DNA from: Pedosphaera sp.
Lineage (GTDB): Bacteria > Verrucomicrobiota > Verrucomicrobiia > Limisphaerales > F1-12-MAGs170
Assembly: GCA_009695275.1 (NCBI GenBank)
Contig: SIBF01000015.1
Coordinates: forward strand, 1-40,442
Direction of reading: 5' to 3'
Length of the DNA stretch: 40,442 nt
The position numbers and the translations under genes were made by a program. The notes beneath the pieces were generated by a model. The model searched no databases, had not been told where the DNA came from, and worked only from the letters and a program-made list of their open reading frames with translations. This document shows positions 2,296 through 35,258 of the stretch, piece by piece. Position 1 is the first letter of the stretch. Each line of letters starts with the position of its first letter.

Positions 2296-2299
2296 CGCC

Positions 2300-5200: not shown

Positions 5201-6700
5201 CAGATCACCGCGTTGAAGCAGTCCCTCGATGGCGAGGAGTTTCGCGATCTCAATCGAAAGGATGCGCAGGCTTTGGTGAACACGGGCAATTTGCTCGTGC
5301 TGCGGACTGACGCCAGACAGCGCCATGCCAACGCCCTGTCAGCTCGCGGCGCTGCCGACTTGCGCCTCAAACAAGCGCGCAGTGCGCTTGAGCAGCGCGG
5401 CACGCCGGCCGAGTTGGACAAACCCTTGCAAGGCGAACTTGTGCCCGAGATCGCTGCCGAGGTCGGCAGCATCGTAGGGAACTTGGAAGCCGAGGCCGCC
5501 CGTCTTGAGGGCGACCACCAGCGAGTTCGCCTCGACGTCGAGGCGAACGAAAAAGCCGCGCAGTCTTCGACTTCACGCAACGAAAGGCTGAAGGGACAAG
5601 CGAAACTCCTCACCAACTTGGACGTGCAGCCTTCTGCTGTGACGGAACTGCCCGCCCTGTTGGCTGACGATGCCTCCGTTGCCGCCACGGTGGATGACCT
5701 CTGCGCTTCATTGCACTCTGCGCGAAAGCAGGTCGAACAACAGCATGGGCGGATTGGCGAACGTCATTCGGCGATTCGCGATTTGACCCAAAGCGAGGAA
5801 TTTTCCCGCGAGTTGAACATTCCCGCGCGTTCACTGTTTGCCACGCTCACGTTGGCCGAGTTGATTCAGGGCAGCGTGGCGGTGGATCGCCAGCAGGCTG
5901 TGGCCGAGCAGACCGAAACCCTCAAAGTGGAACTGCAACAGATGCAGCAACACCGCGATTTGATTGTCAGTGAGTTGCTCACCGAGTCCGAGAAGGCTGT
6001 CAACCTCTTGGGGCGGGCCGCTCGTTTCAGCAAAATGCCGGAAACCATGACCGGCTGGGAAGGCGAGCCATTCCTCCGCATCCACCTCTCCATGCCGCAC
6101 AGTCAGGACGAGAAAATTCTGCGCCTCCGCGCTTATGTGGACGACTTGCTGACGCGCGGTAATCTACCCGACGGTGTGCGGCTGGTTTTTGATGCTCTCC
6201 TCGCGCTGGTGACGGAGCGCGGTATGGAGGCCAGCATTCTTAAACCCGAAACCCAACGCCGCAAAACCCGCTACCCCGTGCGCGAAATGAGCGGTTGGAG
6301 TGAGGGTGAACGCACGACCGTCGCCATCATTCTCTATTGCACACTCGTCAAACTTCGTGCTCAAAGTCGCGGCCTCGCCGAGCGGCGCGCCGAGGTCAGT
6401 GCGCTGCTGTTGGACAATCCCATTGGCAAGGCGTCCAAGCCCGAGTTTCTGGAAATGCATCGCTGGATTGCCGGTGCGCTCGGCGTGCAGCTCATCTACG
6501 CCACAGGCATCAACGATCCGCAGGCGCTGAGTGTATTCCCGAACCGCATCCGGCTCGCCAAGAATCGCATCGTCACCCAAACCGGCGAACTTGCCGTGGG
6601 CGTCGTGGGCGAGGAGGAGGAATCCGTCATCCACGACATCCGCATCTTCGACGGCCACGGCGAAGCGGATCGAGTTGCAACCCCTACCACCGAGGCATGA
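2300..6700 (+). CDS. jetC: JetC, SMC/MukB-like ATPase of Wadjet
   Basis: This 1466-residue SMC-like ATPase would extrude DNA loops and so sense small circular plasmids. The Walker A motif is AENGVGKSS near residues 40-48; the usual first glycine is alanine. About 1000 residues of Glu/Arg/Gln-rich coiled coil fill the middle, with a less helical, possibly hinge, part near residues 640-730. The C-terminal head has the ABC signature region GWSEGERTTVAI near residue 1330. The Walker B strand ALLLDNPIGKAS near residue 1368 has Asn where SMC proteins carry the catalytic Glu. It overlaps jetD by ATGA. The long coiled coil and head motifs make the SMC identity firm. Confidence 0.9.
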   Translation: MPRITRIHFAGIGHHDARFPALKLDFRGANGLPADTVIWAENGVGKSSLLTLFFSTYQTNRRQFLGARGVAKARELEDYIQERDLSFIITEWDITDDRGSASLLTDEPRELLVVGQVLSWKGLDRSTGDLRRRFFTFRPNRDLTLDDLPVAGLAEPVKSYEAFLDWLNARAKEHPKLQIVHETNQGDWRAHLESCHLDPELFAYQLRMNLDEGGVNEIFNELKENKDFIRLFLELGLDPGTPTQVRNNLGDFLPQHRRLEAMRAQVAFNDRLLVELKLFLDQLGLFREAESLARAAGATASLLLAQLQAAAQQATTDLKKFEQQAKELAERERGVSSQRDSVRRRLNFFAHKRAHLEVSESQEALQAAEREVENADKAVRLVALAERLSQLRDREAEAGVLQDAIHREQEQARPELETLEALGAHLQKALNLELSRASARLSAAQDRKKNLRSRQTELQKQREAAMREQAGKGSDLRNVEQFFTNRDRQRDKLRQEGVLDSKEEAAAAHERWQNAARNSTDAATRARSERETALTEARQLAEQRAKLAFQASETEGRFKQLTTRVGDAELRETTLATHPELQAAIEASRADLELPATLDRLRQRVADHLNHLLRLNADMAEDARAEKHVDRDGLFPPTRDVEAVVEHLKSQGVASATPATHWLALNTDVASANALLASDPARFHGVMFNTLADQARAEAAAKSAQSPQAPVQVSPTPEQMPKPSESASVVVLPRHAGAYNRDAAQTERVSLQSRLQSTRTTLDSLRAQHKSAAELETNLTAWLAEFGGGKLTTLREQRRGEEQSLANLREREKESGEQSAAKQTLAEGLETQARHHEQVSQRASTMAGKAETFIEQFETSLEARRQERETLKQRLASLESELGTLHDSAEQLKLSEPGLESEEQEARDQVRDLKKELTTITYAAASEPESLTETLAALRQRYASEVQRFDGRFKNTAAQGQLDEKQKQITALKQSLDGEEFRDLNRKDAQALVNTGNLLVLRTDARQRHANALSARGAADLRLKQARSALEQRGTPAELDKPLQGELVPEIAAEVGSIVGNLEAEAARLEGDHQRVRLDVEANEKAAQSSTSRNERLKGQAKLLTNLDVQPSAVTELPALLADDASVAATVDDLCASLHSARKQVEQQHGRIGERHSAIRDLTQSEEFSRELNIPARSLFATLTLAELIQGSVAVDRQQAVAEQTETLKVELQQMQQHRDLIVSELLTESEKAVNLLGRAARFSKMPETMTGWEGEPFLRIHLSMPHSQDEKILRLRAYVDDLLTRGNLPDGVRLVFDALLALVTERGMEASILKPETQRRKTRYPVREMSGWSEGERTTVAIILYCTLVKLRAQSRGLAERRAEVSALLLDNPIGKASKPEFLEMHRWIAGALGVQLIYATGINDPQALSVFPNRIRLAKNRIVTQTGELAVGVVGEEEESVIHDIRIFDGHGEADRVATPTTEA

Positions 6701-7731
6701 CTCCCGCCGACCAGTTCCATCGCTGCCTCCTCAATCATTCCGACGGGAAGGTGCGGCTAGAACTCGACGCAGTGCGAAAAGCCTTTCAGCAGGTTTACCC
6801 GGAACTGGCGGCGACACCTTCCGCGCGCGGAAGGTTGCGCGAACTGCTCGACATCCTCCAACTTGACGAACGGATCGAGCTGCCCAAGGGTCGCGAACTC
6901 TGGGATGTTTCCGCGCTGCCAGCGTTGCCTCGCTGGGTGAAGTTGCCCCGCGACACAGTGTCCGCAGAGAAACCTGATCTCCGCGCAATTCCCTGGTCGC
7001 CGGAACTGCGCTTTCTCGCCACGACCCGCGTGTTCGTCCCTTTGGCCGACTTGCTGAAGTTGCAGGAGTTCTTTGCGCGTGGCGGGCGCGAGCGCCCCCT
7101 TGTGCCAATCAAAGAACGCTCACTGGAAATCTTCGGCGACGAGAAGCGGCTCGATCCGTTGGCACGCGGCTCGGCCTTGTTTGGTGAAGGACGCCTCACT
7201 CCCGAAAAGCTTCGCTGCTTCATCGTCCCTGAACCGTTGCCGTGGACCGCCGGTTCAACATCGGACGGGCCAGTCATAGTCATCGAGAATGCCGCGACGT
7301 GGCACTCCTACTGTCGGTGGAACGCGGAACAAAAACTGTTCAGCGCCGTCATCTATGGCTGTGGCAATCGCTTTGTGGATGGGATTCGTTCGTTGAACGA
7401 CATCTTCGCGGCGCTCGGCGGCCCGCGCCGCGTGCTCTACTTTGGCGATCTCGATCCTCAAGGCTTGTTGATTCCGCAAGAAGCATCTGCCCGCGCGCAA
7501 GCCGCAAGCCTGCCCGCAGTCGAGCCGCATTTGTGGAGCTATCGTCAGTTGCTGATGCTCGGTGACGGGCGCGGTCAACCGTGGGGAGGCGAACCGCCGT
7601 CATCTACGCTTTGCGATTGGCTTGGAGAATGTGCCGAACCAGTTCGACAACTTTTCGCCGCCAGCCAACGCTTGGCTCAGGAACATGTCGGATGGGAGTT
7701 CCTTCGCGACCAAGCCGGAGCCATTAAATGA
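6697..7731 (+). CDS. jetD: JetD, Toprim-type nuclease of Wadjet
   Basis: JetD is the effector of Wadjet: a topoisomerase VI-A-like Toprim nuclease that cleaves the plasmid once JetABC has reeled it in. The 344-residue protein has an N-terminal winged-helix region (1-120). Its C-terminal Toprim domain shows VIVIENAATW near residue 195 (the conserved acidic strand) and VLYFGDLDPQGLLI near residue 247 (the DxD metal motif). I chose the ATG at 6697, inside the jetC stop, because it gives the family's normal length; the longer open frame upstream overlaps jetC. The stop sits directly against a purB fragment, so the operon ends at a recombination junction. Confidence 0.87.
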   Translation: MTPADQFHRCLLNHSDGKVRLELDAVRKAFQQVYPELAATPSARGRLRELLDILQLDERIELPKGRELWDVSALPALPRWVKLPRDTVSAEKPDLRAIPWSPELRFLATTRVFVPLADLLKLQEFFARGGRERPLVPIKERSLEIFGDEKRLDPLARGSALFGEGRLTPEKLRCFIVPEPLPWTAGSTSDGPVIVIENAATWHSYCRWNAEQKLFSAVIYGCGNRFVDGIRSLNDIFAALGGPRRVLYFGDLDPQGLLIPQEASARAQAASLPAVEPHLWSYRQLLMLGDGRGQPWGGEPPSSTLCDWLGECAEPVRQLFAASQRLAQEHVGWEFLRDQAGAIK

Positions 7732-9326: not shown

Positions 9327-9457
9327 TATACTCTGCGCGGCCATAGATTGCGCTTTTTGAAATCGAGCGAAAATGGTCGCTTCCCATTGATTGTGAGCTA
9401 CTTGACAACTCAAGTGTCACGGTGCCAAAAGCGCAGTTTGTGACCGCGCTCAGTATA
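9327..9457 (+). mobile_element. 127-bp MITE, copy 1 (TA-flanked)
   Basis: A non-coding 127-bp element (9329-9455) with imperfect terminal inverted repeats. The ends read TACTCTGCGCGG and, on the other strand, TACTGAGCGCGG, and the similarity continues for about 30 bases. TA lies on both sides, as expected for the TA target duplication of IS630/Tc1-mariner-type transposases. Near-identical copies occur at 26502-26632 (same orientation) and 31313-31443 (inverted). No transposase is present, so movement would need one in trans. Confidence 0.85.
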
Positions 9458-22894: not shown

Positions 22895-24584
22895 TCACCG
22901 GGTGTCGCGCTCGCCGGGATTTGGGTTCTTTGGACCGATTGAAGTTCGCACACGACCATCAGCGCGTCCTCCTCTGGCGGTCCGGACACTCCACGCGCCC
23001 TCATTGATAGCGATGGAGACTGCTCCCTTTTGTTGAGTCGAGAAAAGGCTGGTCTCGTTTTGCTCGAGCCGTTCCCGGAGTTTGGAGTTGAGGCGGGCTG
23101 TGACGGGAAATTCGGCCGTCGCCAGCACAATGACACCAGGTTTAATTCTTGAGAGCAGTGAATCGATCAGTGGTTCGCCGTCGTTTGGCATCCCGGCGAT
23201 CACGATGTCCGATTCCAGATCGAGTGCTCCCTCCAGAAGTTTCTGCTGACCTGATCTTGCCAGCACAGGCAGAATCAACACTCGAATCCCTCCAAACTCT
23301 CCCCGCAGTAACATTGCCGCGTCATCGGCGCGTGGAAATTGATCGCCGACCGCCGGGTGGATGATCTCCCACATTCCAATTCGTTCGCCCGCGCTCATCT
23401 GCTTATGCCAGCCAGGACGTGCATCAACTCCCTTTATCAACTCGCGGTAGGCCGGGGAACGGAAACGCAACGGACTGGTCACAACTTCACCGATGCTGAA
23501 ATCACCGAGAATTTCGTGGAATGCCTCCACATGTCGCAACCCACCATGACTGATCACAAGCCGAGGAAGATGATTGAAGCCGTGAGAGCGCAAGAAGGGC
23601 CTCAAAACAAACTGGGCTCCAGACCGGTCACTACAGTTCAAGAGAAGGTCGCTCGCGTCGCCGGGAGCATCCACGAGGATACCGCTGCCTCCCAAAGGCA
23701 GCACTGTGATCTCGACTCGCTTTCGTTCGAGCCATGTTTGGATCGCGACCGACGCGCACCAGATGCCGACCACACCAGCCATCCATTTCCAGCGACCACT
23801 ACGCCACGCCCAACCATTCAACACCGCTGCAAGGACACCGTAATAGATCACAAACTCATGCCAAAAGGGTGGGCGGACAAAGAAGAATGCTGACGGAAGT
23901 GAAGCGCACCACTGGCTCAGCCCGATCATCCATTTCATCCAGAGCCACGAACTGTGATTGAACAATTCCGTGAGCCACGGCAGCCAGTCGCCACAGGCCA
24001 GACTGCCCAGGCTGCTTGCCAAACCCACGCTGCTGAGGGGAACGATGAGCAGATTCGCCAGCAGACTCACCGGCGTGATCATGAAGAAGTAGTAGGCAAT
24101 CAAAGGCAGCGATCCGAGCCACGCCGCGAGGGAAGTCGCCAGGCTGGATGTCAGGTGTCCGAGCGCATAACGCAGAAAACGTTCCCAACGCGGACGAAGT
24201 TCATGAGGCAACAGCGGATCGGGCTCCAGCAGACGCCGGCGCAGCTTCTCAATCGGCGGTGTGATCAGGGCCAGACCCAGAACCACAAAGAACGAAAGCT
24301 GGAAGCCGGCCTGAAAAAGTTGTCGCGGATCCCAAACAAGGATGATCAATCCAGCCACTGCGAGGGAATTCAACAGGTTCGTTGGACGTCTGATCATCCA
24401 GCCGCCGATGATCACCGTCATCATCACCGTCGAACGAATTGCCGATGCCTGCCAGCCGGTTGCCGCCGTATAGAACCAGATCAATGGAATCGCCAGCAGG
24501 CCGCACGCTTGGCGGGGAATTCGCATCACACGAAACACACTCACAAGAATTCCCGCAATCAACGCGATGTGCAGGCCGCTGATG
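22895..24584 (-). pseudogene. comEC: comEC, C-terminal part (split by the integrated element)
   Basis: This is the larger part of the DNA-uptake channel ComEC/Rec2. At the element junction the frame begins ISGLHIALIAGIL, the conserved start of the Competence transmembrane domain. Many membrane helices follow, with the family run GWQASAIRSTVMMTVIIGG and later QLFQAGFQLSFFVVLGLAL. The last 250 residues are a metallo-beta-lactamase-like domain that has lost the HxHxD motif (VISHGGLRHVEAF instead). About 562 residues remain. The first 260 lie 10.7 kb away at 35262-36040 on the same strand. The frame is intact apart from the insertion, so excision would give a normal gene. An internal TTG at 24562 is the only local start. 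Confidence 0.88.
24582..24584 (+). other. Element left junction (attachment core ATG)
   Basis: ComEC-like sequence (gcaggccgctg) changes to element sequence (cttgactttacttaac) at this ATG. The same three bases stand at the right junction, and serine integrases exchange strands within a 2-3 bp core. The recombinase gene starts 35 bases further in. Confidence 0.8.
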
Positions 24585-24619
24585 CTTGACTTTACTTAAC
24601 TCTATGTAACGGTTGGGGC

Positions 24620-26185
24620 GTGAGAACGGCATACTCCTACGTCCGATTAAGCAGCAAACGTCAAACTAAAGACACGTCAACGGGACAAACTCGCCAACTA
24701 GAACGAGCCGCAGCAATCTGCAAGGAAAAGGGCTGGCATCTTTCCCCAAAGACATTTCTAGACTTGGGGGTTTCTGGATACAAGGGAGAGAACCGTTTGC
24801 AGGGTTCCCTTGCCAAGTTCATTAAACTTGCCAAAGAAGGAAAGCTTGGGGAACAGCCCGTTTTATTGCTGGAAGGGTTCGACAGATTTTCCCGGCAGAA
24901 TATAGACAAAGCGGAACCCGCCTTTGTGGATTTGCTCAAGTCGGGCGTGGACATTCACGTTTCGCTGACAAACAAGACGTTCACCAAAGAACACACCAAG
25001 GAGCTACTCAGCCGTGTTGAAATCCTCGTTTCCATCAAGCAAGCCCATGATTTTTCCGCTCTGCTTTCCTCCCGCATCAAATCCACTCAAGAGTTGCGGG
25101 ATAGGAAAATCCGTTCCGGGCAAGTGATACGGACATGCAATGTCCCCCGCTACTATGCTTTTGATGACGCAGCCAAGACGTACATTCAGACGCCGGCGGC
25201 AGACATTGTGAAACGCATCATCAAAGATTATTTGGACGGTAATTCGCTTTATAGAATCAGCCAAACATTGAACACGGAACAAATCCCGTGCATCGGTTAC
25301 AAGGCGAGGGTCAAGTGGAGCCGTATGACAATCAGAGGCATACTTCAAACCGAAGCTCTATACGGAATCCATAAGGGCAACGAAGCGTTTTTCAAAGACC
25401 CCATTTGCGACAAAGACACCTTTGATCGAATTAGAGTCTTGCTGAAACAAAACTCCGGCAACCGTGGCAGGTTCGGAAGCGACTTCGTGAATATGTTCCG
25501 TGGCATTGCAAAGTGCCCGGTGTGCAAAGGCTCAATGTCCGCAGGAGTTCAATTCATTAACAGCAAAACGGGCAAGGCCAAGAAGGAGCCTTACCGCTAT
25601 TTCCGTTGCAGTTCGGTTAGCAACTCAATTCCTTGCACTAATCGGCACAATTTTAACTTGAAGGAAATTGAAACGGAATTCTTTGCCGTGTTTATGCAGC
25701 AAGACCCGGAAGCGGTTTTCCGGCAAAACGATGACGGAGCCAACCAAAAGGAAATCACCCGCACGCAAACGGAACTGGACAAAGTCTCAAAGAAAATCAA
25801 GACCTTGTTGGAGGATGATGACTTGTCCGAAGTGAAGGCCAAACTTCAGGAACTTAGAAAGCAACGGCAGTCACTCAACACCAAGCTTCAAGGATTGCAG
25901 TTAAACAGATCCGCTCAAGTTGTCCGCATGGAAAACATCGTGGATTTCAAGAGGTTGCTGGCGGCCGTAAAGAAACCAACTGAAACCTTCACAACCGCAG
26001 ACAAAATGAACTTTGAAAAAGGCATTTCAAGCTTGGAACAGAAGCTTAAAAACAACGCAATCCGCATGAAAGTGCGGAATATACTGCCAAGCATCATTTC
26101 TCGTATTGATTTCAACGCAGTAAAGGGCTGGTGGAAAGTTTACGACTTGAACGGCAAAGATATTTATACATCAATGCCAAACTGA
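24620..26185 (+). CDS. Large serine recombinase (element integrase)
   Basis: A 521-residue large serine recombinase starting at GTG. The catalytic domain opens AYSYVRLSSKRQ with the nucleophile at Ser11 of the YxRxS motif, and the ELLLEGFDRFSR-type segment lies near residue 90. A recombinase DNA-binding domain follows (about 170-275: GNSLYRISQTLNTEQIPC). Then comes a zinc ribbon with CPVC near residue 299 and a second Cys pair near 329-340. A coiled coil rich in Lys/Glu at about 370-430 ends in a short tail, as in phage integrases. Its position 35 bases from the junction in comEC identifies it as the enzyme that integrated the element. Excision would require a directionality factor, not identified here. 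Confidence 0.92.
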   Translation: MRTAYSYVRLSSKRQTKDTSTGQTRQLERAAAICKEKGWHLSPKTFLDLGVSGYKGENRLQGSLAKFIKLAKEGKLGEQPVLLLEGFDRFSRQNIDKAEPAFVDLLKSGVDIHVSLTNKTFTKEHTKELLSRVEILVSIKQAHDFSALLSSRIKSTQELRDRKIRSGQVIRTCNVPRYYAFDDAAKTYIQTPAADIVKRIIKDYLDGNSLYRISQTLNTEQIPCIGYKARVKWSRMTIRGILQTEALYGIHKGNEAFFKDPICDKDTFDRIRVLLKQNSGNRGRFGSDFVNMFRGIAKCPVCKGSMSAGVQFINSKTGKAKKEPYRYFRCSSVSNSIPCTNRHNFNLKEIETEFFAVFMQQDPEAVFRQNDDGANQKEITRTQTELDKVSKKIKTLLEDDDLSEVKAKLQELRKQRQSLNTKLQGLQLNRSAQVVRMENIVDFKRLLAAVKKPTETFTTADKMNFEKGISSLEQKLKNNAIRMKVRNILPSIISRIDFNAVKGWWKVYDLNGKDIYTSMPN

Positions 26186-26237
26186 AAGGTTGCTCCACGG
26201 AGTCGCTAAAACCCAAAGTCAGCAAATACGAAGAAGT

Positions 26238-26447
26238 TCATCGCTTAAAGCATAGACCTGAGCCCCAACAGCTCCCACCACTGGAGAGTTGTGATAATTG
26301 CACATTTCCCCACCGATTTGGATTTGGTTTCAAGTGGGTGAACAAATTCCGAAAGTCAAGGAATTCATCCTTGGCATGGCCGGAATGAGCTGACAGACTT
26401 CTACCAGTATAAATCAGAATCAATGTAACGAATAACAAGAACAACAA
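26238..26447 (-). CDS. Possible small secreted protein
   Basis: A 69-residue frame starting at TTG with a strongly hydrophobic N-terminus (MLFLLFVTLILIYTGRSLSA) that would act as a signal peptide. A short polar tail follows, ending in SSGGSCWGSGLCFKR with two cysteines. It fills the otherwise gene-free 316 bases between the integrase and the second MITE. No family is recognised, the start codon is weak and no clear ribosome-binding site is seen, so it may be chance. Confidence 0.3.
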   Translation of the reverse strand: MLFLLFVTLILIYTGRSLSAHSGHAKDEFLDFRNLFTHLKPNPNRWGNVQLSQLSSGGSCWGSGLCFKR

Positions 26448-26501
26448 TTTTTTAGCGTAGCAACGGCTACGGTCTCACCGAAAACCGCCAGTTTTCCAAA
26501 C

Positions 26502-26632
26502 TATACTCTGCGCGGCCATAGATTGCGCTTTTTGAAATCGAGCGAAAATGGTCACTTCCCATTGATTGTGAGCTACTTGACAACTCAAGTGTCACGGTGC
26601 CAAAAGCGCAGTTTGTGACCGCGCTCAGTATA
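26502..26632 (+). mobile_element. 127-bp MITE, copy 2 (TA-flanked)
   Basis: The same 127-bp element as at 9327-9457 (26504-26630 plus TA on each side), in the same orientation. One difference is visible by eye (ggtcac here, ggtcgc in copy 1), and copy 3 shares this variant. It lies between the integrase and the membrane-protein cluster. Confidence 0.86.
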
Positions 26633-26644
26633 GAAGACCGTCCG

Positions 26645-26735
26645 AGCACGCACCACCTGGGTGCGTGCTTGGCGTATTCTTCTAGTAGGCGCCTTGCGGT
26701 GCCTCGGTGAGGGTGCGTTAGGTTCGCACCCTTTT
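26645..26735 (+). promoter_or_regulatory. Three consecutive hairpins ending in a terminator-like stem, upstream of the DUF2628 gene
   Basis: Hairpin 1 pairs AGCACGCACC (26645-26654) with GGTGCGTGCT (26660-26669). Hairpin 2 pairs AGGCGCC (26687-26693) with GGTGCCT (26698-26704). Hairpin 3 pairs GGGTGCG (26711-26717) with CGCACCC (26725-26731) and is followed by TTTT. The last stem could be an intrinsic terminator or an attenuator 43 bases ahead of the next start codon. I match no known riboswitch class. Confidence 0.55.
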
Positions 26736-26777
26736 GATTTCCGTGGCGGGAGCGAGGCTGAAACAACCAAAACGGAA

Positions 26778-27197
26778 ATGAAGACGTACAAAGTATTCGC
26801 ACGAGGTAACGAGACTGTGGCGGTCAAGCAAGGATGGTCATGGCCGGCATTCTTTCTACAGTGGATCTGGGCTTTCTCGAGGAAGCTCGCCGTGATTGGA
26901 GGCATCACGCTGGCAGTGAACATCGTCGTGTTGGTGATACCAGTCAAGAATCTGAATAACCCCTACCTCGTCATTGCAGGAGTGATATTTGGCTTGAAGG
27001 GCAACAAATGGCGAGAGGCAAGCCTGTTGAAGAGCGGGTTCTCCGATAAGGGGACGGTTCAAGCGAATAACCCGGCCGAGGCTGAGTCCAATTTCAAGTC
27101 TTCGTCTCAAGGCTTTCCATTCATCCAAGGCCAAACCGAAGTGGCAGGTAGCCGAGCTCCGAACACACCAGAGCAAAGGCCTGGGCAGTTTCGTTAA
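26778..27197 (+). CDS. DUF2628-like small membrane protein
   Basis: A 139-residue protein whose start at 26778 gives MKTYKVFARGNETVAVKQGW, then SWPAFFLQWIWAFSRKL and two hydrophobic segments (AVIGGITLAVNIVVLVIPV and LVIAGVIFGLKGNKWREASL). This is the DUF2628 arrangement: a short polar head, a WSWPAFF membrane entry and a GNKWRE loop. The polar tail of about 50 residues is variable. It is the first of a co-oriented series of small membrane proteins with GYF_2- and TM2-like modules. DUF2628 proteins have no established function. Confidence 0.72.
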   Translation: MKTYKVFARGNETVAVKQGWSWPAFFLQWIWAFSRKLAVIGGITLAVNIVVLVIPVKNLNNPYLVIAGVIFGLKGNKWREASLLKSGFSDKGTVQANNPAEAESNFKSSSQGFPFIQGQTEVAGSRAPNTPEQRPGQFR

Positions 27198-27212
27198 CAC
27201 GTGAGGTGCCAA

Positions 27213-28022
27213 ATGGACCGATATTGCTACATTGATGACCAGGGCAACATCAGCGATGCGCTGCCTATTGAGGCGCTTCGTAAGATCACCTTGCCCCCAC
27301 AGACCAAGGTGCTACCCGAAGGCGGAAGGAAGTGGATCACGTTTACTGAGGCATTAGAGGGTCAGTCAGCGATTGTCATCCCGGCAGCACCGGTTGATCC
27401 TCAAGCGGCATCGCAATCCTCCGTGTCAAGACCAGCATCGCCCAACCTCACCACCGATGACAAACTGCTGCTGGACCGCTACACCAAGCGTTGTGCAACA
27501 AGAGATCGGATAGCTCCGAATCAGAAATTCCGAAACATGGTGTGCGGCATCATCTCTGCGATTGGACTCCTGATCCTGATCGGCAGTTTGGCTGGCGGTG
27601 AGGATGCGGTAAGGAAGTCGCTTGGCGAACAGAATTCGGGGGAAGCCGGACGTGCCATGGGAATGTTGCCCGGCAGCGACGAGGCGAAGCGGTTAGCGGA
27701 GCAGGCAGCCGACATCACAGGCCTGACTAAGCACGAGTATCAAAGCAACTTGGGAATGGCAGCGGGTTTGATCGTCTTCGGTGGTCTGCTCTGGTGGCGT
27801 TGGAAATCCCTCTGGGAGGCGTGGCCGTTCATGAGGGCGAAGGCTTGGACCGGAGCCGTCTTCTTTCTACTGGGTTTGATGACGACTGTTACTGAGGCAG
27901 GAAGAGGCGATAATGGAAGCATCGGAGGAGCGGTTATATTCATCGGGATCGGCGTGTGGCTGTTCACGTCCGGCATCGCCAAGACCAAATCAATCATAGG
28001 TCACCTAACCGCACCTTTGTAG
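27213..28022 (+). CDS. GYF_2-like domain membrane protein
   Basis: A 269-residue protein. I chose the ATG at 27213 because a second gene at 29062 starts the same way (MNRYHYIDEEGNISDPLP against MDRYCYIDDQGNISDALP). The first 50 residues match the GYF_2/DUF4339 pattern of a Tyr-rich opening, an LP..AL strand and a KWITF ending. A linker follows, then three or four membrane helices (ISAIGLLILIGSLAGG, AAGLIVFGGLLWWRW, VFFLLGLMTTVTE, GGAVIFIGIGVWLFTSGIA). GYF_2 modules usually bind proline-rich partners or act as regulatory heads of membrane proteins. The specific role is unknown. Confidence 0.7.
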   Translation: MDRYCYIDDQGNISDALPIEALRKITLPPQTKVLPEGGRKWITFTEALEGQSAIVIPAAPVDPQAASQSSVSRPASPNLTTDDKLLLDRYTKRCATRDRIAPNQKFRNMVCGIISAIGLLILIGSLAGGEDAVRKSLGEQNSGEAGRAMGMLPGSDEAKRLAEQAADITGLTKHEYQSNLGMAAGLIVFGGLLWWRWKSLWEAWPFMRAKAWTGAVFFLLGLMTTVTEAGRGDNGSIGGAVIFIGIGVWLFTSGIAKTKSIIGHLTAPL

Positions 28023-28046
28023 CAGTACCGGGAAAGCGGACATTGG

Positions 28047-28157
28047 TAGCCTCATCACTTGGTTCCCACGACCAAAGTAGCCGTGGGTGGTGTGGGTCGT
28101 GTCGGATGTCTTGAAGTAATAACCGAGCATCCGTCCGGTCCTGTCGAAAATTTGGAT
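28047..28157 (-). pseudogene. Degenerate copy of the 61-residue FDRTGRMLG protein
   Basis: On the minus strand this reads IQIFDRTGRMLGYYFKTSD, then TTHTTHGYFGRGNQVMRL. It is almost the C-terminal two thirds of the intact 61-residue protein at 29820-30005. A TAA stands immediately before the homology and no start codon fits, so only a remnant is left. Unlike the intact copy it has no resolvase beside it. Confidence 0.7.
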
Positions 28158-28194
28158 TTATGTTCTCAAGTGCCAGAAGCGCTTTATTAACATC

Positions 28195-28350
28195 GTGGCC
28201 ACACTGGCTTTTAGCACTTTCTTTTATGCGGTCTCTCCCGATTTACTTGGAAATGGATACAGAATCGGCTTCGCGTTAGTGAGTCTGATGGGATTTTGGT
28301 TTGTAATGTCAATCATCCTGCGTTATTTAGCAAAAAAGCAAACCTATTAA
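28195..28350 (+). CDS. Possible small membrane protein (two helices)
   Basis: A 51-residue frame from an in-frame GTG: VATLAFSTFFYAVSP, a GNGYR turn, then FALVSLMGFWFVMSIILRYL and a basic tail KKQTY. Two hydrophobic helices with a short polar turn look like a genuine small membrane protein. The frame stays open upstream into the degenerate FDRTGRMLG remnant, so the true N-terminus may have been lost. It is co-oriented with the other small membrane genes. Confidence 0.4.
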   Translation: MATLAFSTFFYAVSPDLLGNGYRIGFALVSLMGFWFVMSIILRYLAKKQTY

Positions 28351-28395
28351 GGAATTGAATGCCGAGTAGGTTCAGAGTAATGAAGACAAACGCCT

Positions 28396-29010
28396 ATGAC
28401 AACTGAAGCTAACGCGGGCAAGTCAGGTTTCTACCCGACGTTTTTCTTGTGCCTTTTTCTGGGGGTGTTTGGTGTCCATAGGTTTTACAACAGGAAATTG
28501 GGCACGGGCGTCCTCCAGCTTGTGACATTTGGGGGATTGGGATTCTGGGTGCTTGTTGATCTACTCATGGTTCTTCTGGGGAAGTTCAAAGACAAGGGCG
28601 GCGTGCCCATCATAAACGTAAATCCGAAAATGTCGTGGATGGTTGTGGCAGTCGTTATCATCATCGGCGTTGCTTCTGGAAGTTCGGAAAAAGGAACGAC
28701 AAATGATAGTAGCAGTTCCCAGTCAATCAGTTCACACGGTAACAGCTCCACGTCTGTTTCGGCGTCAGATGTAGCCGGGCGATGGGTTGGAGAGTACCAA
28801 GGGCTGACTGCCATGGACATTACGCTTTTTCCGAACGGCTCCTACGTATCGTCTTCCGGTGACTTTGCCGGTGGTCAAGTTTCGTCAGGTAGTTGGCGTT
28901 TAAGCGGTAATCGTGTGACGGTCCAACTGAGCGACGGCTCACCGTTATCCTTTACATACAGTGGCGGGAGATTGGTGGCAGGTAATGGTCGGCCGTTGAA
29001 CCGACGTTGA
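28396..29010 (+). CDS. TM2-domain protein with extracytoplasmic beta domain
   Basis: A 204-residue protein. Residues 10-70 form a TM2 domain, two helices linked by a conserved turn (CLFLGVFGVHRFYNRKLGTG and GLGFWVLVDLLMVLLGKF). A third helix (MVVAVVIIIGVASG) leads into a Ser/Thr-rich linker. The last 75 residues (VAGRWVGEYQGLTAMDITLF, GSYVSSSGDFAGG, SGSWRLSGNRVTV) look like a small beta-barrel. A similar module ends the gene at 29278-29745 (GSYVLMFGESGSKHTGTWKV), so these neighbours share parts. The function is unknown. Confidence 0.72.
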   Translation: MTTEANAGKSGFYPTFFLCLFLGVFGVHRFYNRKLGTGVLQLVTFGGLGFWVLVDLLMVLLGKFKDKGGVPIINVNPKMSWMVVAVVIIIGVASGSSEKGTTNDSSSSQSISSHGNSSTSVSASDVAGRWVGEYQGLTAMDITLFPNGSYVSSSGDFAGGQVSSGSWRLSGNRVTVQLSDGSPLSFTYSGGRLVAGNGRPLNRR

Positions 29011-29061
29011 TCGTGCATGACCCCGTGACATGCACGGAACAACTGAACTGTGGAAATCAAA

Positions 29062-29241
29062 ATGAACCGATACCACTACATTGACGAGGAAGGAAACATC
29101 AGCGACCCGCTGCCTTTGGCGGCACTTCAACAAATTCGCCTGCATCCCTCAACCAAAGTCATGCTGGAGGGCACAAACACCTGGACCACTCTTGGGCAGG
29201 TATCGCAGAAAGGTCCGGTTGTTTTTCCTGCTCCTCCCTAG
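29062..29241 (+). CDS. GYF_2-like head, 5' part of a gene interrupted by an in-frame TAG
   Basis: This 59-residue frame (MNRYHYIDEEGNISDPLPLA, then LHPSTKVMLEGTNTWTTLGQ) is a GYF_2-like head closely matching the start of the protein at 27213. It ends at a TAG (29239-29241) in the middle of a proline-rich linker. The same frame then continues without another stop through a proline/serine linker and the membrane protein at 29278-29745. The two pieces probably form one original gene split by a nonsense mutation. Expression as two proteins or stop readthrough is possible but unproven. Confidence 0.6.
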   Translation: MNRYHYIDEEGNISDPLPLAALQQIRLHPSTKVMLEGTNTWTTLGQVSQKGPVVFPAPP

Positions 29242-29277
29242 GCATCCCCCCGTCCCCCTTCACTCCCATCAAATCCG

Positions 29278-29745
29278 ATGCCGCCATCTTTTGCTGCCGC
29301 GGTGGGTTCCTCGTCAACCAACAAATTACCCAAGGCTGTAAAAACCGGTTGTCTCGGATGTTTGGCGATCATTGTAATTGCAATTATCTTGGGAATCGTT
29401 GGTGCTATTATTGATAGTATGAAATCCACCGAAACGATTGCCAAAACTCAGCCCCCATTAGCAACCGATCCTGATGAGGCTTCTCGGAAACAATACGCAG
29501 GCGTTTATGCTACGATTTCCGGCCCGGTCACATTCGCAGGAGGATTAGGACTTTTCCAGAGCGGAAGCTACGTTCTTATGTTCGGAGAAAGTGGCAGCAA
29601 GCACACTGGGACTTGGAAAGTTGAAGGAGAAACCATACGATTGAAGGGCGAAGCATCGGGCGACACAGTATTGAAAATACTGGATTCTGATCGGTTGCTT
29701 TACGAGAAGAACGGGATTGAGGTTGTCTGGCGGTTGCGAGAATAA
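29278..29745 (+). CDS. Membrane-anchored beta-domain protein, 3' part of the same interrupted gene
   Basis: A 155-residue frame, in the same reading frame as the GYF_2-like head upstream. One transmembrane helix (CLAIIVIAIILGIVGAIID) is followed by a linker and a beta-rich domain (YAGVYATISGPVTFAGGLGL, GSYVLMF, HTGTWKVEGETIRLKG, NGIEVVWRL) similar to the end of the TM2 protein at 28396. The ATG at 29278 lies in the linker and has no obvious ribosome-binding site. It may be an internal start only made necessary by the upstream TAG. A terminator-like hairpin follows 43 bases after the stop. Confidence 0.65.
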   Translation: MPPSFAAAVGSSSTNKLPKAVKTGCLGCLAIIVIAIILGIVGAIIDSMKSTETIAKTQPPLATDPDEASRKQYAGVYATISGPVTFAGGLGLFQSGSYVLMFGESGSKHTGTWKVEGETIRLKGEASGDTVLKILDSDRLLYEKNGIEVVWRLRE

Positions 29746-29788
29746 TTTTAGCAAATCTAACGACATAGCCTGCTCATTATTTCGTTGG

Positions 29789-29822
29789 AAGCCCATCGGC
29801 TCTCGGTAATTGGGCTTTTTCA
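29789..29822 (+). terminator. Intrinsic terminator after the membrane-protein cluster
   Basis: AAGCCCA (29789-29795) pairs with TGGGCTT, followed by a run of five T (29816-29820). It lies between convergent genes, the membrane cluster on the plus strand and the resolvase operon on the minus strand. It may serve both directions, since A-rich sequence precedes the stem only weakly on the other side. Confidence 0.72.
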
Positions 29823-30005
29823 TTTCAACAACCGCATCACCTGATTCCCCCGTCCAAAGAATCCGTGGGTCGTATGAGTCGCGTCGCTTCCCTTGAGATA
29901 AAACCCAAGCATCCGTCCGGTTCTGTCAAAAATCTGAATTTGGGTGGAATTCTCAATCGTCCAGCCAACCACCGAATTGGTTCGGTCAAAAATGTTGGTT
30001 TTCAT
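29820..30005 (-). CDS. 61-residue protein coupled to a serine resolvase
   Basis: A 61-residue protein with an internal duplication: NIFDRTNSVVGW near the start and QIFDRTGRMLGF in the middle. It then continues ATHTTHGFFGRGNQVMRLL. Its ATG overlaps the resolvase stop (ATGA), so both come from one transcript and are translationally coupled. A degenerate copy lies at 28047-28157. The repeated FDRTGRMLG pattern resembles a short beta-hairpin family I cannot name. No function is known; a role with the resolvase is inferred only from coupling. Confidence 0.6.
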   Translation of the reverse strand: MKTNIFDRTNSVVGWTIENSTQIQIFDRTGRMLGFYLKGSDATHTTHGFFGRGNQVMRLLK

Positions 30006-30658
30006 AACCGAGCGAGAATCCGCCTAACTTGGGTGAAGTGCCACCGACCGCCAGAACGAGTTTTGATTCCCTCGGAATTCAGGCGGTTTGCAATCTCGTC
30101 AATGGTCAGGCGGTCGTTCCGAAGATTTTGAATTTTGGAAATGATCTCCGTCTCCCCTTCTTTTTGCCCAAATGGTTTCCGACCCTCACAACGTCCGGTC
30201 TTTTCTTTGGAACGGATTCTGGCGGCTCGGAGTTTTTGAACGATACACGACTTTTCCCACTCGCTGACGACACCGAGAATCTGGCGGATCATCTTCCGGC
30301 TCGGATCGTCCGAATCCACCGTCAAATCAGTGCCACCGTCAGCGGCCACGACTTTCACACCCAATTTTCTAAATTCCGCGAGCAAGGTTTCCGAGACCAC
30401 CAAGTCACGGGCGAGACGGTCGGCTTTCTCAACCAAAACGACTTTGACCCCATCCGCCTTGATGGCGACGAAAAGTTCGGTGAGACCGGGCCGATCAAAA
30501 GCCGCCCCAGAAACTCCCTCGTCTCGGAACTCCGTTACAATCTCCATTCGGTTGCGTCGGGCATAATCCGTCACCGATTGTCGTTGGCGGGGAAATCCGT
30601 CTCCGTCCACTTGGCCCTTGCCGGAAACCCGTAGATAACTGAAAGTTTTCGTTTTCAT
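30002..30658 (-). CDS. Serine resolvase/invertase-type recombinase
   Basis: A 218-residue serine recombinase of resolvase size. The catalytic opening is FSYLRVSGKGQ with the nucleophile at Ser12. GVSGAAFDRPGLTEL and VLVEKADRLARD, with the conserved Arg of the active site, follow. After the catalytic domain comes a short Recombinase-type segment and a helix-turn-helix (RLTIDEIANRLNSEGI, then WHFTQVRRIL). It is far smaller than the integrase at 24620 and may resolve multimers of a circular form or invert a segment. The 61-residue gene downstream overlaps by ATGA. No res site was recognised. Confidence 0.88.
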   Translation of the reverse strand: MKTKTFSYLRVSGKGQVDGDGFPRQRQSVTDYARRNRMEIVTEFRDEGVSGAAFDRPGLTELFVAIKADGVKVVLVEKADRLARDLVVSETLLAEFRKLGVKVVAADGGTDLTVDSDDPSRKMIRQILGVVSEWEKSCIVQKLRAARIRSKEKTGRCEGRKPFGQKEGETEIISKIQNLRNDRLTIDEIANRLNSEGIKTRSGGRWHFTQVRRILARL

Positions 30659-31025
30659 GTGCCTGGAGTCCTACGGGAGAGTGGTCCCGTCAAGCACGAT
30701 TTCTGTAGAATAAGTGCTTAATAATAGGCAACGTGTACAAGTGCAACTGGATCGGTAGAAAAAGTAGTTTTGGTCTGTTTTGGGTGGGGGGGGCAACCAC
30801 CACCGCCCCCACGGAAGACACGTTCGGACCGTCAACACCGTCTGGAATGGTCAGGGGAGGGGCTGGCATCGGTCACGAGGGGAGTTTCCGTTGATGGCGG
30901 TGTGAAGGCACCCCTCGGGAAGTGGATACGTTTAGATGGATTCCGACCGAGGAGGAAAATCTAGGTCGCAATGTAAAAGGGGCGGACCACCTTCAGGTCG
31001 CCGACCAGTTCCTACCGTCACGAAG
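30659..31025. other. Intergenic region, resolvase upstream side
   Basis: No gene is supported in these 367 bases. The region holds a long G-run (gggtggggggggcaaccacc near 30781-30800) and lies upstream of the resolvase start, so it should contain its promoter and possibly a res site. I could not identify clear paired subsites. The open frames here lack family features. Confidence 0.4.
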
Positions 31026-31310
31026 CTAACCGATGGCTCTCCCAACACCCCCCTTGCCCCCTCTGGGGTTCCGCCGGTCGTTATCCTTGGTCAACTCTCG
31101 TTTCCGGCTCTCAACGTCACGATGCTTGGCGACAACCGACTTAAGTCTAGCGATTTTGTCGCGGTATGATTGGAGTTTCTTCTTCAATTCCGTAGCACGA
31201 ACGTCTTCATGCAGATCGTTTGCAGCCGATAGTGTGTCCCCCAGTTGCATTAAAATAAGTTGAACGATCTGAATTAAGTTCTCAGGGTCAAATCCTGTTG
31301 ATGTTTTCAT
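31026..31310 (-). CDS. Small coiled-coil protein, last gene of the rep operon (cut off by a MITE)
   Basis: A 94-residue charged helical protein (NLIQIVQLILMQLGDTLSAA, then VRATELKKKLQSYRDKIARL) with a Lys/Arg/Gly-rich tail. Its ATG sits 2 bases from the TA flank of MITE copy 3. Taking the MITE out places ggagggg 8 bases before the ATG and puts the preceding gene's stop in an ATGA overlap with it. It was therefore the fourth gene of the rep operon and has lost its native ribosome-binding site. The function is unknown. Confidence 0.6.
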   Translation of the reverse strand: MKTSTGFDPENLIQIVQLILMQLGDTLSAANDLHEDVRATELKKKLQSYRDKIARLKSVVAKHRDVESRKRELTKDNDRRNPRGGKGGVGRAIG

Positions 31311-31312
31311 GC

Positions 31313-31443
31313 TATACTGAGCGCGGTCACAAACTGCGCTTTTGGCACCGTGACACTTGAGTTGTCAAGTAGCTCACAATCAATGGGAAGTGACCATTTT
31401 CGCTCGATTTCAAAAAGCGCAATCTATGGCCGCGCAGAGTATA
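31313..31443 (-). mobile_element. 127-bp MITE, copy 3 (inverted), inserted in the rep operon
   Basis: The same element as copies 1 and 2 in the opposite orientation (31315-31441 plus TA on both sides). It shares the ggtcac variant of copy 2. The insertion point is at the very end of the 66-residue gene, between the ribosome-binding site and the start of the 94-residue gene. Confidence 0.87.
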
Positions 31444-31624
31444 GTTCGCCCCTCCGTAATTGTGCCATCAATCGCTCGTGAAGGATTGCGGCGGTCATTA
31501 TGCGGGATATACGACGAAGCTCGTCTTTGCAAAAACGTTCGGGCTGCAAGATGTGGACTCCGATGGGCAATCCGGAAAGATCATCATCGGTATCGCTGAT
31601 CTCCACTTTAGAGGCAGTCTTCAT
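31424..31624 (-). CDS. Small protein, third gene of the rep operon (C-terminus altered by MITE)
   Basis: A 66-residue protein starting MKTASKVEISDTDDDLSGLP and continuing RFCKDELRRISRIMTAAILH. Its ATG overlaps the stop of the upstream gene (ATGA). The last five residues and the stop come from the MITE. Without it the frame would end RRGELA at a TGA overlapping the next gene's ATG. No family is recognised; small size and operon position suggest a replication or copy-control accessory. Confidence 0.55.
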   Translation of the reverse strand: MKTASKVEISDTDDDLSGLPIGVHILQPERFCKDELRRISRIMTAAILHERLMAQLRRGELYSARP

Positions 31625-31836
31625 GGCCGGTCCTTTTTGATGCTTTTTAATGCGGCCCTTTTCAATTCTTGAAACTGAGCTGCATTCTGAGTCTCCCTCC
31701 GCTCCATTTGCTTAATATGAGCAGAGTGGCGTTCGTTTCTTATCTGTTGCAGTTCCTCGTCAGATGGAAAGCCGATGAAGACCGGCGTTTCAGGATCGAG
31801 TGCTTTGAGCTCGTTAAAAAGTTCAGTCATTGTCAT
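31621..31836 (-). CDS. Small charged protein, second gene of the rep operon
   Basis: A 71-residue protein (MTMTELFNELKALDPETPVF, then SDEELQQIRNERHSAHIKQM) with a short N-terminal strand and a long charged helix. It overlaps the Rep-like gene by ATGA on one side and the 66-residue gene by ATGA on the other, so the operon is tightly coupled. No domain is recognised. It could be a replication accessory or transcriptional modulator, inferred only from position. Confidence 0.55.
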   Translation of the reverse strand: MTMTELFNELKALDPETPVFIGFPSDEELQQIRNERHSAHIKQMERRETQNAAQFQELKRAALKSIKKDRP

Positions 31837-32333
31837 TTTTTTCCTTTCTTCAAATCTAAGGTCAATTGCCGTGAATAATACGGCTTCTCCAATTCGGGGT
31901 TTCTAACGGTAATTTTTGTCACATATCTTAAACCAAGACGGACTCCCTCTTCGTCCTTCGATTCGTTATTGAACGGTTCAACCTTCACAAATATCCCAAT
32001 GGGTTTAGCCACATTGCGGCAGTGATTGCAGATTTCTTCTGGCGTCCACTGCGGAACGTGAGCAATGACAAAATGATTGTGAATGTCACCTTTACTTGAG
32101 GACTCTAACCTCCACCAATATCCAAGACGAGTGATCCCCAATCTGGTTGTCAGTTCGGAAAAGAACTTGTTCACCATCTGGTTTCTATTCGGTGATAAAA
32201 AAGAACACCTATTTTTTGCAGATTTGAAAGTTAAGCCACCGAAAACAGACCACTCCGGGACGAGCTCCAAATGATACAAATCGGGAATGTTTGTCTTGGA
32301 ATACCGAAGTAACTGTTGATCTGTAAGATTCAT
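31833..32333 (-). CDS. HUH-type replication initiator (Rep-like)
   Basis: A 166-residue protein with the three motifs of HUH rolling-circle initiators. Motif I is an FGGLTF strand. Motif II is KGDIHNHFVIAH, where His-x-His would bind the metal. Motif III is LRYVTKI with the candidate nucleophilic Tyr and the following Lys. HUH Reps nick one strand and stay covalently attached to start replication of small plasmids or single-stranded phages. It is short but in range for such Reps. It heads an operon of four coupled small genes, so the element was probably once a self-replicating circle. No search was run; similarity is judged by motif. Confidence 0.58.
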   Translation of the reverse strand: MNLTDQQLLRYSKTNIPDLYHLELVPEWSVFGGLTFKSAKNRCSFLSPNRNQMVNKFFSELTTRLGITRLGYWWRLESSSKGDIHNHFVIAHVPQWTPEEICNHCRNVAKPIGIFVKVEPFNNESKDEEGVRLGLRYVTKITVRNPELEKPYYSRQLTLDLKKGKK

Positions 32334-32741
32334 TTGGATTTTTACTCAGGAATGAATTTGGGCAAAGGTATTCATTCGAGATAATCCATGATACATAGTG
32401 TCAAAAAAATTAAAAATAGCAGTCGGAGAACTGCTGTGTCTGTAAAGCATTCATTATCAATGTGCTAAACTTGAAATAAAATTAATCGCAACTGAAAGAA
32501 AATTGCTTTTTCAAATTACGAAGACAGGAAACAGGAATCCGTGACAGCCTTTGAGTTCCTCCACGTTGAGCACGCTGACTCAGTCATGGGTGGATGCTGG
32601 TGGAAAACGGACAAAAGCTAATGATAACGCCTCAAAACAATTGGCGAAGCACAACCTGAAGACCTTGAAATCCTGTCTCTGACCGAAGATAAAAACAATT
32701 ACCAACAAAGTTTAGCCATGATCGTATAATTTAAGAAAGAA
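32334..32741. other. AT-rich region upstream of the rep operon (candidate promoter/origin)
   Basis: This is 408 AT-rich bases without a supported gene. It contains the hairpin AGCAGT-cggaga-ACTGCT at 32418-32435 and further short A/T tracts. As the upstream side of a Rep-like operon it should hold its promoter, and a nick site for the Rep could lie here. No iterons were recognised. Confidence 0.4.
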
Positions 32742-32763
32742 AAGGGGGACGCAAGTCCCCCTT
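32742..32763 (-). terminator. Intrinsic terminator of the DUF3102-like gene
   Basis: AAGGGGGAC and GTCCCCCTT form a perfect 9-bp stem around a 4-base loop. On the minus strand a TTTTCTTTC tract follows, 9 bases after the stop of the gene ending at 32772. Confidence 0.8.
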
Positions 32764-32771
32764 CTGAATGA

Positions 32772-33656
32772 TTAAGCCGCTACTGAAGCCGTCTTTGGAT
32801 CCTCAAGAGAGATAGGTTCTGCTCTTAACTCCTCGTTGATAAGAAAAGTGCGTTTTCTTGTTTCATTACTATACCATCTAAGAAACGGAGTAAGTTTATG
32901 ATAAAGATCATCGATCCCGGCTTGAGACAACGGTGTCACGGAGCCTTTTATTAAATCTCTTGCTAATAAATTACCATTGTCTGCGAATTGGAATTCTATG
33001 TCAGACAATTTCTTGTATTTGATGTCTGAAGTGCAAGGTTTTAATACTAATACCAACTCGGGCAAGACTCTATACGGTTGTTTTAGTTTTGGCTTCACCT
33101 GCTTTGACCTTTTGACAGGAGTTGGAAGCAAACTGGGGACGGTAGGCTCATCCTCGACTTTGGGAATTGCCACTTGAGGGTATAGATATACTTGACCTTC
33201 GATTGTGTTATCAACGGTATCATTTAATTCCTTTATCACACCTAAACGAATATAGGCGGATCGTAGAGATTGAATGCTACTATCCAACTCGTCTTTAGCG
33301 TTGAATAGTTTCATGTAGCGGGTTGCTGTTTTGTAGCACATAAGGTGTGACAAATGAGTTTCTACGAACTTGGTAAACAATCCGTTGTTAAGAGTGCGTC
33401 TACATTTTACTAGGTAATCACCGCAAAGTAGAGCTGATTCCAAAGCCTTCTTCTTCCAATGAGCGGTTTCAAGGTCGGCGGTGTTAGCATTAGCGTGGTG
33501 CGTTTTAATCTGTTGAATCCAATCCATTATTTCTAAAGTTACAATTTCCGGTGTTGGACTTGTTGGAGTAACACTGGACACTGTGTCCAGTATGCCGATA
33601 GGATCGTTTTGCTTGTCCTTCTGACACGGGCGGATGACATTGATTTGTTTTTTCAT
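32772..33656 (-). CDS. DUF3102-like plasmid/element protein
   Basis: A 294-residue protein. Residues of about 60-120 read KALESALLCGDYLVKCRRTL, then GLFTKFVETHLSHLM and YKTATRYMKLF. This is the pattern of DUF3102-type proteins of plasmids and integrative elements, with a helical region and an SxxTAxRYM-like helix that suggests DNA binding. The middle is basic and proline-rich (TPVKRSKQVKPKLKQPYR). A clean terminator follows. Base composition is clearly AT-rich compared with the host. It may take part in maintenance or regulation of the element; this is inference. Confidence 0.62.
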   Translation of the reverse strand: MKKQINVIRPCQKDKQNDPIGILDTVSSVTPTSPTPEIVTLEIMDWIQQIKTHHANANTADLETAHWKKKALESALLCGDYLVKCRRTLNNGLFTKFVETHLSHLMCYKTATRYMKLFNAKDELDSSIQSLRSAYIRLGVIKELNDTVDNTIEGQVYLYPQVAIPKVEDEPTVPSLLPTPVKRSKQVKPKLKQPYRVLPELVLVLKPCTSDIKYKKLSDIEFQFADNGNLLARDLIKGSVTPLSQAGIDDLYHKLTPFLRWYSNETRKRTFLINEELRAEPISLEDPKTASVAA

Positions 33657-34069
33657 ATTTGTACGCAGTTCTTCCGTGATTGGTTTTACAAGGGGAAAAA
33701 CCAGAACCCTTTTTGATGTTTCGCTTTTCTACTTTTACTTGTGTGAACTTACTTTAAGTCCCACATGACAGCGTCAGCGTATACATGCCGAACGCAAAAG
33801 TAAAGGCAAATCACGGAGACCGGTATTTGCTTTGTAGACAATGGTTTGTGTCACAAAGGTTGCCTCTTGTGCCTGAAGACCGACCGATAGAAATGTGCTT
33901 TAGATCCTTGTAGCAGGGAAAATTGAGAAGATTACCCTCGATTCAATGGCATAGCGTATTGTCGAACGGCTGCATCAAATCTGCCCACGCTTCAACTTGA
34001 TTAATCCACTCAGATTGATCTCTCGATGTTTGAACTTGCCAGCCAGGCGGATAGGGATAGCTTTGGGAT
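33657..34069. other. Intergenic stretch with a small coding remnant
   Basis: No complete gene is supported in these 413 bases. On the minus strand, about 34065 to 33943, a frame without a start reads SYPYPPGWQVQTSRDQSEWI and continues for 20 codons to a stop. It looks like the C-terminal end of a lost protein. The part next to 33656 should hold the promoter of the DUF3102-like gene. Confidence 0.4.
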
Positions 34070-34146
34070 GCGGTCGTAGTTTAGCGACAAGAATGTGAGC
34101 CTTCCGGGTTCAAGGTGTGTGGTTCAATTCCACGCCGACCGCTCCA
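34070..34146 (+). tRNA. tRNA-Gly-like gene, anticodon TCC, encoded CCA
   Basis: The acceptor GCGGTCG (34070-34076) pairs perfectly with CGACCGC (34136-34142), followed by T and an encoded CCA. The anticodon stem TGAGC/GTTCA frames the loop CTTCCGG with anticodon TCC (34103-34105), which reads glycine. The T arm is TGTGG-TTCAATT-CCACG. The D arm is weak (GTTT/GAAT, loop AGCGACAA without the usual GG). One extra C (34135) separates the T stem from the acceptor. At 77 bases it may be a degenerate or unusual element-borne tRNA. Confidence 0.6.
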
Positions 34147-34154
34147 GTTTTACG

Positions 34155-34975
34155 ATGGCCAGACTAAAGCAAATTTCTGAAGAGGAACTTGAGCAAGAAG
34201 CACAAGGTGTCATTCGTGATTTTACTGTGCCGCAGGAAGGCCTTCATTTGCAGCGAACACCGTTCGACAACGCCTATATTCAACTTCTCTGGCGTCAGCA
34301 TTATGTCGGTTCCAAAGGCACGGTTGGAAGGCAGATGTCCTACATGAGAGGGGGGATTCTGCAGACGTTATAGGAAAGAGCCGTTTTCACAACTATGAAT
34401 TCGTTGCTGACGCCAAAGTCTTTCGACTAAGTCGAACCGCAAAAAACCAGAAGGACTTCAAAGTTACCTCCATGAATCATTGGAAAGGTAACGCTGAACA
34501 TGCCGTAATCGTCTGCCCATTCTACCAGTACCCTTCAACATGCTCTCAGATTTACTCCCAAGTCTTGGATACGGGAGTTGCGTTGAGTTCGTTTGAGCAT
34601 CTTTTATTTTGCTTCCGATCTGGGATAAAGGAAACGAAGGATGTGTCTCTCCGTGAATTGTTTTCCTATCCGGTCGAATTGTCCGCAAGAGTCGCTCACT
34701 CAGAAAGGAAGCAAGCTCGTCACGTTATGAATGCGTTAGATACGACGGTTGCTAAAGTTTGTAAAGTGCCAGTCAAAGCGGTAGTTGAATCTAGAAATTT
34801 CCTTGCGAAGACGGTGCTGTCCCCTCGTGCTGAGGAAGAAGTTGCATTCTGGCAAACAGAAATACAAAAGATTGAGAAGCTGACAAGAGAGGAAGCCTTG
34901 GAGTCCTTGATTGAGAGTCGCAAGATCCACGGCAAGATTGAAAGTATTAAAGAGTTCATTATTTTGAGTACGTAA
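34155..34975 (+). pseudogene. HindIII-family type II restriction endonuclease, frameshifted and N-terminally short
   Basis: Between 34220 and 34975 one frame reads RQRLYSTSLASALCRFQ, then LHERGDSADVIGKSRFHNY, FVADAKVFRLSRTAKNQKDF and HAVIVCPFYQYPSTCSQIY. It ends with the helical run REEALESLIESRKIHGKIES. I recognise this as HindIII: RLSRTAKNQKDFKV is shared, and the catalytic Glu (ERGD) and the Asp-x-Lys of ADAK are kept. The frame has no upstream start. Another frame from the ATG at 34155 (MARLKQISEEELEQEAQGVI) probably gives the N-terminus, with a shift near 34250. No partner methyltransferase is seen. The gene starts 8 bases after the tRNA-like gene. Confidence 0.72.
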
Positions 34976-35258
34976 TGAAAGCGTTAAGTTTGCGTCCGCG
35001 ATGGGCGTGGTCGAATTCGTGACAATAACTGGGGTTGGTTCGACGGGCTCCAGCCAATCGTCTAAAGTTTTCCGTTTCGGTGGCATAGATCCAGAACGTA
35101 GCCGGTCCATTGACCCAGAGCAACTCGGCACCGGTTTTCAAGGGGAATCCATGTGAGCCGCACAGTTTAGGCCCGTGCGTCCTCACTTAACCGGAAAAAT
35201 CCCCTGTTTATCGCAGTTTGACTTTATTGCTTAAGAGTAGAGTAATGGCAGGACAGGC
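34976..35258. other. Right end of the element without a supported gene
   Basis: This stretch holds only short conflicting open frames on both strands. The one at 34959-35186 (minus, GAELLWVNGPATFWIYATET) is the best looking but matches no family I know. Bases 35233-35245 (aagagtagagtaa) partly mirror 24592-24604 (ttacttaactcta) at the other end, a possible recombinase-binding arm. Confidence 0.4.

Follow-up and report, generated by a model that had tools for sequence, protein, structure and literature searches.

A probable remnant of a HindIII-type restriction-modification system, fused to the start of a phage DruA-family gene on an integrative element in comEC

A decayed, non-functional remnant of a HindIII-type restriction-modification system is very probably carried by the integrative element that interrupts comEC in the window analyzed here (the whole stretch of 40,442 nucleotides from contig SIBF01000015.1 of Pedosphaera sp.). 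The endonuclease gene is reduced to its last three quarters: it begins at codon ~84, behind a phage gene start that reads in another frame, and therefore no HindIII-like enzyme would be made by ordinary translation. The coordinates of the relevant features are presented in Table 1.

Table 1. Features of the remnant and of the element that carries it
Feature	Position	Strand	Evidence
Integrative element in comEC, 10,675 bp	24584..35258		comEC flanks abut in L119; GC content
Large serine recombinase, 521 aa, beside the left end	24620..26185	+	Pfam Resolvase, Recombinase, Zn_ribbon_recom; PHROG 95 integrase, E 1.5e-56
tRNA-Gly, anticodon TCC	34070..34146	+	ARAGORN; Rfam RF00005, 44.2 bits (low-scoring)
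Phage DruA-family gene, 5' piece (~61 codons)	34155..34337	+	Frame 0; 80% identity to residues 1-64 of L089:5001-5690
Fusion point	34326..34337		Ungapped alignment and HMM scores of sub-pieces; GGAAGGCAGATG identical to the phage gene
HindIII-family restriction endonuclease gene, 3' part	34338..34975	+	Frame 2, from ~residue 84 of HindIII to the natural stop; Pfam PF09518, HindIII 2e52, conserved positions
Sole callable ORF of the HindIII part, 167 aa	34472..34975	+	Starts after the catalytic motif

The frame-2 translation of positions 34220-34975 contains 251 open codons and is preceded by a TGA stop at 34217. A score of 167 bits (E 6.6e-49) was obtained with the Pfam RE_HindIII model (PF09518), which exceeds the family cut-off of 25.3. 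HindIII proper from Haemophilus influenzae (PDB 2e52) matches the same translation with E=2.3e-40 in phmmer, and a custom HMM constructed from 44 relatives scores it at 250 bits. No other HindIII-family match appears in the genome bin. At the level of sequence, this similarity is certainly far beyond chance. The identity given in the original prediction was thus confirmed by these searches and by alignment to the family. The peptides quoted there are present in the frame-2 translation, and the catalytic D...DAK residues, said to be retained, are found in the HindIII-like part as SADV and VADAK.

The element was delimited by comparison with a genome of the same genus (G001), in which the comEC flanks abut exactly (L119, 1790/1791). 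The comEC gene, which encodes a DNA-uptake channel and lies on the minus strand, is split by an insert with a GC content of 0.48, compared with 0.57-0.59 outside. The insert is identified as an integrative element by the recombinase gene beside its left end and by the clean, uninterrupted comEC site in the related genome. About a dozen other genes are aboard, including a resolvase and small membrane proteins. A 166-aa ORF at 31833-32333 gives a weak match to the rolling-circle family REP_ORF2-G2P (E 4.3e-5, below the Pfam cut-off), and the element may contain a plasmid-like or phage-like replication module. An adjoining 294-aa ORF matches PHROG 6146. A search for further copies of the element gave none; relatives of the recombinase within the class are only 25-32% identical, and none was found in IMG/VR. 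The reverse-strand ORF at 34959-35186 has no relatives.

Two sets of repeats were also observed. A 110-nt direct repeat (28050-28159 and 29832-29941, 78% identical) is located inside the element near a TM2-domain gene. A 135-bp repeat, which contains an imperfect inverted repeat, occurs twice in the element in inverted orientation (26499-26633 and 31312-31446, 100% identical) and again at 9327-9457. There are 29 copies in the genome bin at 98-100% identity, and it is therefore regarded as a MITE- or REP-like repeat that was active recently. Elsewhere in the window, a Wadjet (type III) jetABCD defence operon was detected at 140-7731 using PADLOC models, with E-values of 1.1e-80, 1.8e-5, 1.2e-160, and 5.4e-79 for JetA, JetB, JetC, and JetD, respectively.

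The remnant is located near the right end of the element together with the tRNA-Gly(TCC) gene, which is the feature described as tRNA-like in the original prediction. This tRNA is divergent, scoring 44 bits against 71.5 bits for the other Gly-TCC gene of the host, and is thus an extra copy. An exact copy occurs nowhere else in the genome bin, and an exact 25-base probe for a phage origin gave no match in IMG/VR. The tRNA ends 8 nt ahead of the start codon of the phage gene.

Two IMG/VR contigs (L088 and L089) carry a 229-residue ORF whose first 64 residues, from Met1 onward, align at 80% identity with the ORF that opens in frame 0 at ATG 34155. The 229-residue protein matches the Pfam family DruA (PF14236) with an E-value of 3.9e-8, and the DruA domain occupies residues 45-177. 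Support for this fusion partner comes from a single phage lineage, since the two contigs encode an identical protein. On these contigs a 785-residue ORF precedes the DruA-family ORF. It gave no match in PHROGs or Pfam and is taken to be a portal protein, judging by where it lies and how long it is. The phage contigs give no match to the region upstream of the DruA-family gene start, and no relatives of the region were found among annotated phages and plasmids.

The position of the join was obtained from two signals. Nucleotide identity to the phage gene, counted per 60-base block, runs 36, 40, 51, and 19 and collapses just past 34337; beyond the junction the frame-0 ORF stays open by chance up to a stop at 34373. 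The HindIII-specific signal begins at ~34328-34337, and the part from there alone scores 239-243 bits with the custom HMM. Inclusion of the upstream frame-2 residues (LYST...) adds only ~8 bits, and when these residues are replaced by the phage gene's own frame-2 residues, 245 of the 250 bits are still obtained. From the HMM scores and the phage identity, positions 34155-34337 were therefore assigned to the 5' end of the phage gene and the HindIII gene was taken to be cut at ~residue 84. The junction bases GGAAGGCAGATG are common to the phage gene and, in the HindIII frame, read K-A-D-V, which is close to the family consensus. The stretch fits both partners, and microhomology may thus have contributed to the join.

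The junction lies in a short stretch common to both partners, as it might also if the metagenome assembly had joined two unrelated molecules at 34337 that were never joined in the cell, and the bin is a fragmented draft of 232 contigs. However, the contig continues into the correct comEC flank on the other side, and the sequence on either side of the junction is therefore part of a single continuous element. The junction is not spanned by any repeat of at least 16 bases. A chimeric assembly is accordingly considered improbable.

The original prediction described a HindIII gene with a short, decayed N-terminus and a frameshift near 34250. The phmmer and Pfam frame-2 matches do nominally start at ~34259-34274, as such a gene would lead one to expect. 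However, frame 0 contains no HindIII N-terminus that the family HMM can match, even with filters off; frame 2 carries almost no HindIII signal before 34328; and the frame-0 segment resembles the start of the phage gene. The frameshift was rejected on these grounds, and the proposed gene structure is very improbable. Decay was correctly recognized in the prediction, but the N-terminus is neither short nor frameshifted: ~83 codons are absent and are replaced by the out-of-frame 5' end of an unrelated DruA-family gene.

The consequences of the cut were assessed at 68 near-invariant columns (at least 90% conserved in the 44 relatives). Eighteen of these belong to the lost N-terminus; of the 50 in the retained part, 43 are conserved and 7 altered. 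Other family members differ at 0-7 of these ~50 positions (6 in H. influenzae HindIII). Decay was therefore recent, or some constraint remained. A complete protein of ~285-300 residues with the N-terminal PE / EK / K..D..L positions was not found, and the HindIII-like sequence is a fragment of a family member and is predicted not to work as one.

The first in-frame ATG, GTG, or TTG codon of frame 2 is the ATG at 34472, downstream of the D...DAK motif. Ordinary annotation would therefore report a C-terminal ORF of 167 residues that lacks the catalytic residues, in agreement with the earlier suggestion that the HindIII identity would be missed. Ordinary translation would yield at most a 72-residue hybrid peptide from ATG 34155 and this 167-residue piece. 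Neither product should be able to cut DNA.

A HindIII-type methyltransferase gene is located directly downstream on the same strand in 80 of 90 HindIII-family loci, and the nuclease and methyltransferase are both intact at a locus from a genome of the same order (L116). In the window, the 283 bp from the remnant to the end of the element (34976-35258) contain no methyltransferase gene or remnant, consistent with the original prediction that no partner is visible. A search of the genome bin (66% complete), which had been proposed as a check, gave no M.HindIII-like gene; the methyltransferases of the bin are generic N6/N4 enzymes only, which resemble M.HindIII weakly and locally (E >= 0.001). 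The evidence that the genome lacks a HindIII-type methyltransferase is good but not final, as the missing third of the bin could hold an unlinked one. An active type II nuclease without its methyltransferase is toxic. The proposal that loss of the nuclease was required for survival would fit this established behavior of type II systems.

It is most improbable that the join is instead a living chimera, in which the phage DruA-type start supplies translation and an N-terminus and slippage on the G run at 34350-34355 shifts reading into the HindIII catalytic part, creating a novel nuclease that the element retains: frame 0 indeed stays open from the ATG through the junction and past the G run, as far as 34373, with the catalytic motif next in the neighboring frame, but the near-invariant N-terminal positions are lost, no protecting methyltransferase was found in the region or the bin, and no relative with the same arrangement of phage piece and HindIII part was found.

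The preferred reading, a dead gene remnant, can be compared with known systems. The remnant shares with the HindIII family (PF09518; HindIII, PDB 2e52) the region that runs from ~residue 84 through the C-terminal end and contains D...DAK, FRLSRTAKNQKDFK, and QYP..SQI, as well as the natural stop codon. It differs in the loss of the first ~83 residues, of a usable start before the catalytic motif, and of an adjacent methyltransferase. The 5' piece encodes the N-terminal 61-64 residues of a DruA-family (PF14236, formerly DUF4338) phage protein, whereas most of the DruA domain is cut off. Fragments are common among restriction genes that have no partner; in the survey of Ershova et al. (2012, PMC3488263), 99 of the 272 solitary genes were classed as likely fragments. 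The remnant resembles these in having no partner and in being more than 20% shorter than its homologues, the measure by which genes were called "probably truncated" in that study. In contrast to those genes, the cause of truncation is visible here as a fusion to a phage piece on an identified element.

Most simply, the nuclease gene would have been captured or truncated by illegitimate, possibly microhomology-assisted recombination, which may have taken place within a phage-like donor or on the element itself. Death of the nuclease would have come before or together with loss of the methyltransferase, because the reverse order would be lethal. As gene remnants go, the locus is ordinary; the clarity of its fusion point is unusual. 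It provides a record, with named parts, of the death of a restriction gene on a mobile element through fusion to a phage piece with the methyltransferase absent, and it illustrates that an apparent frameshifted N-terminus can be a different gene.
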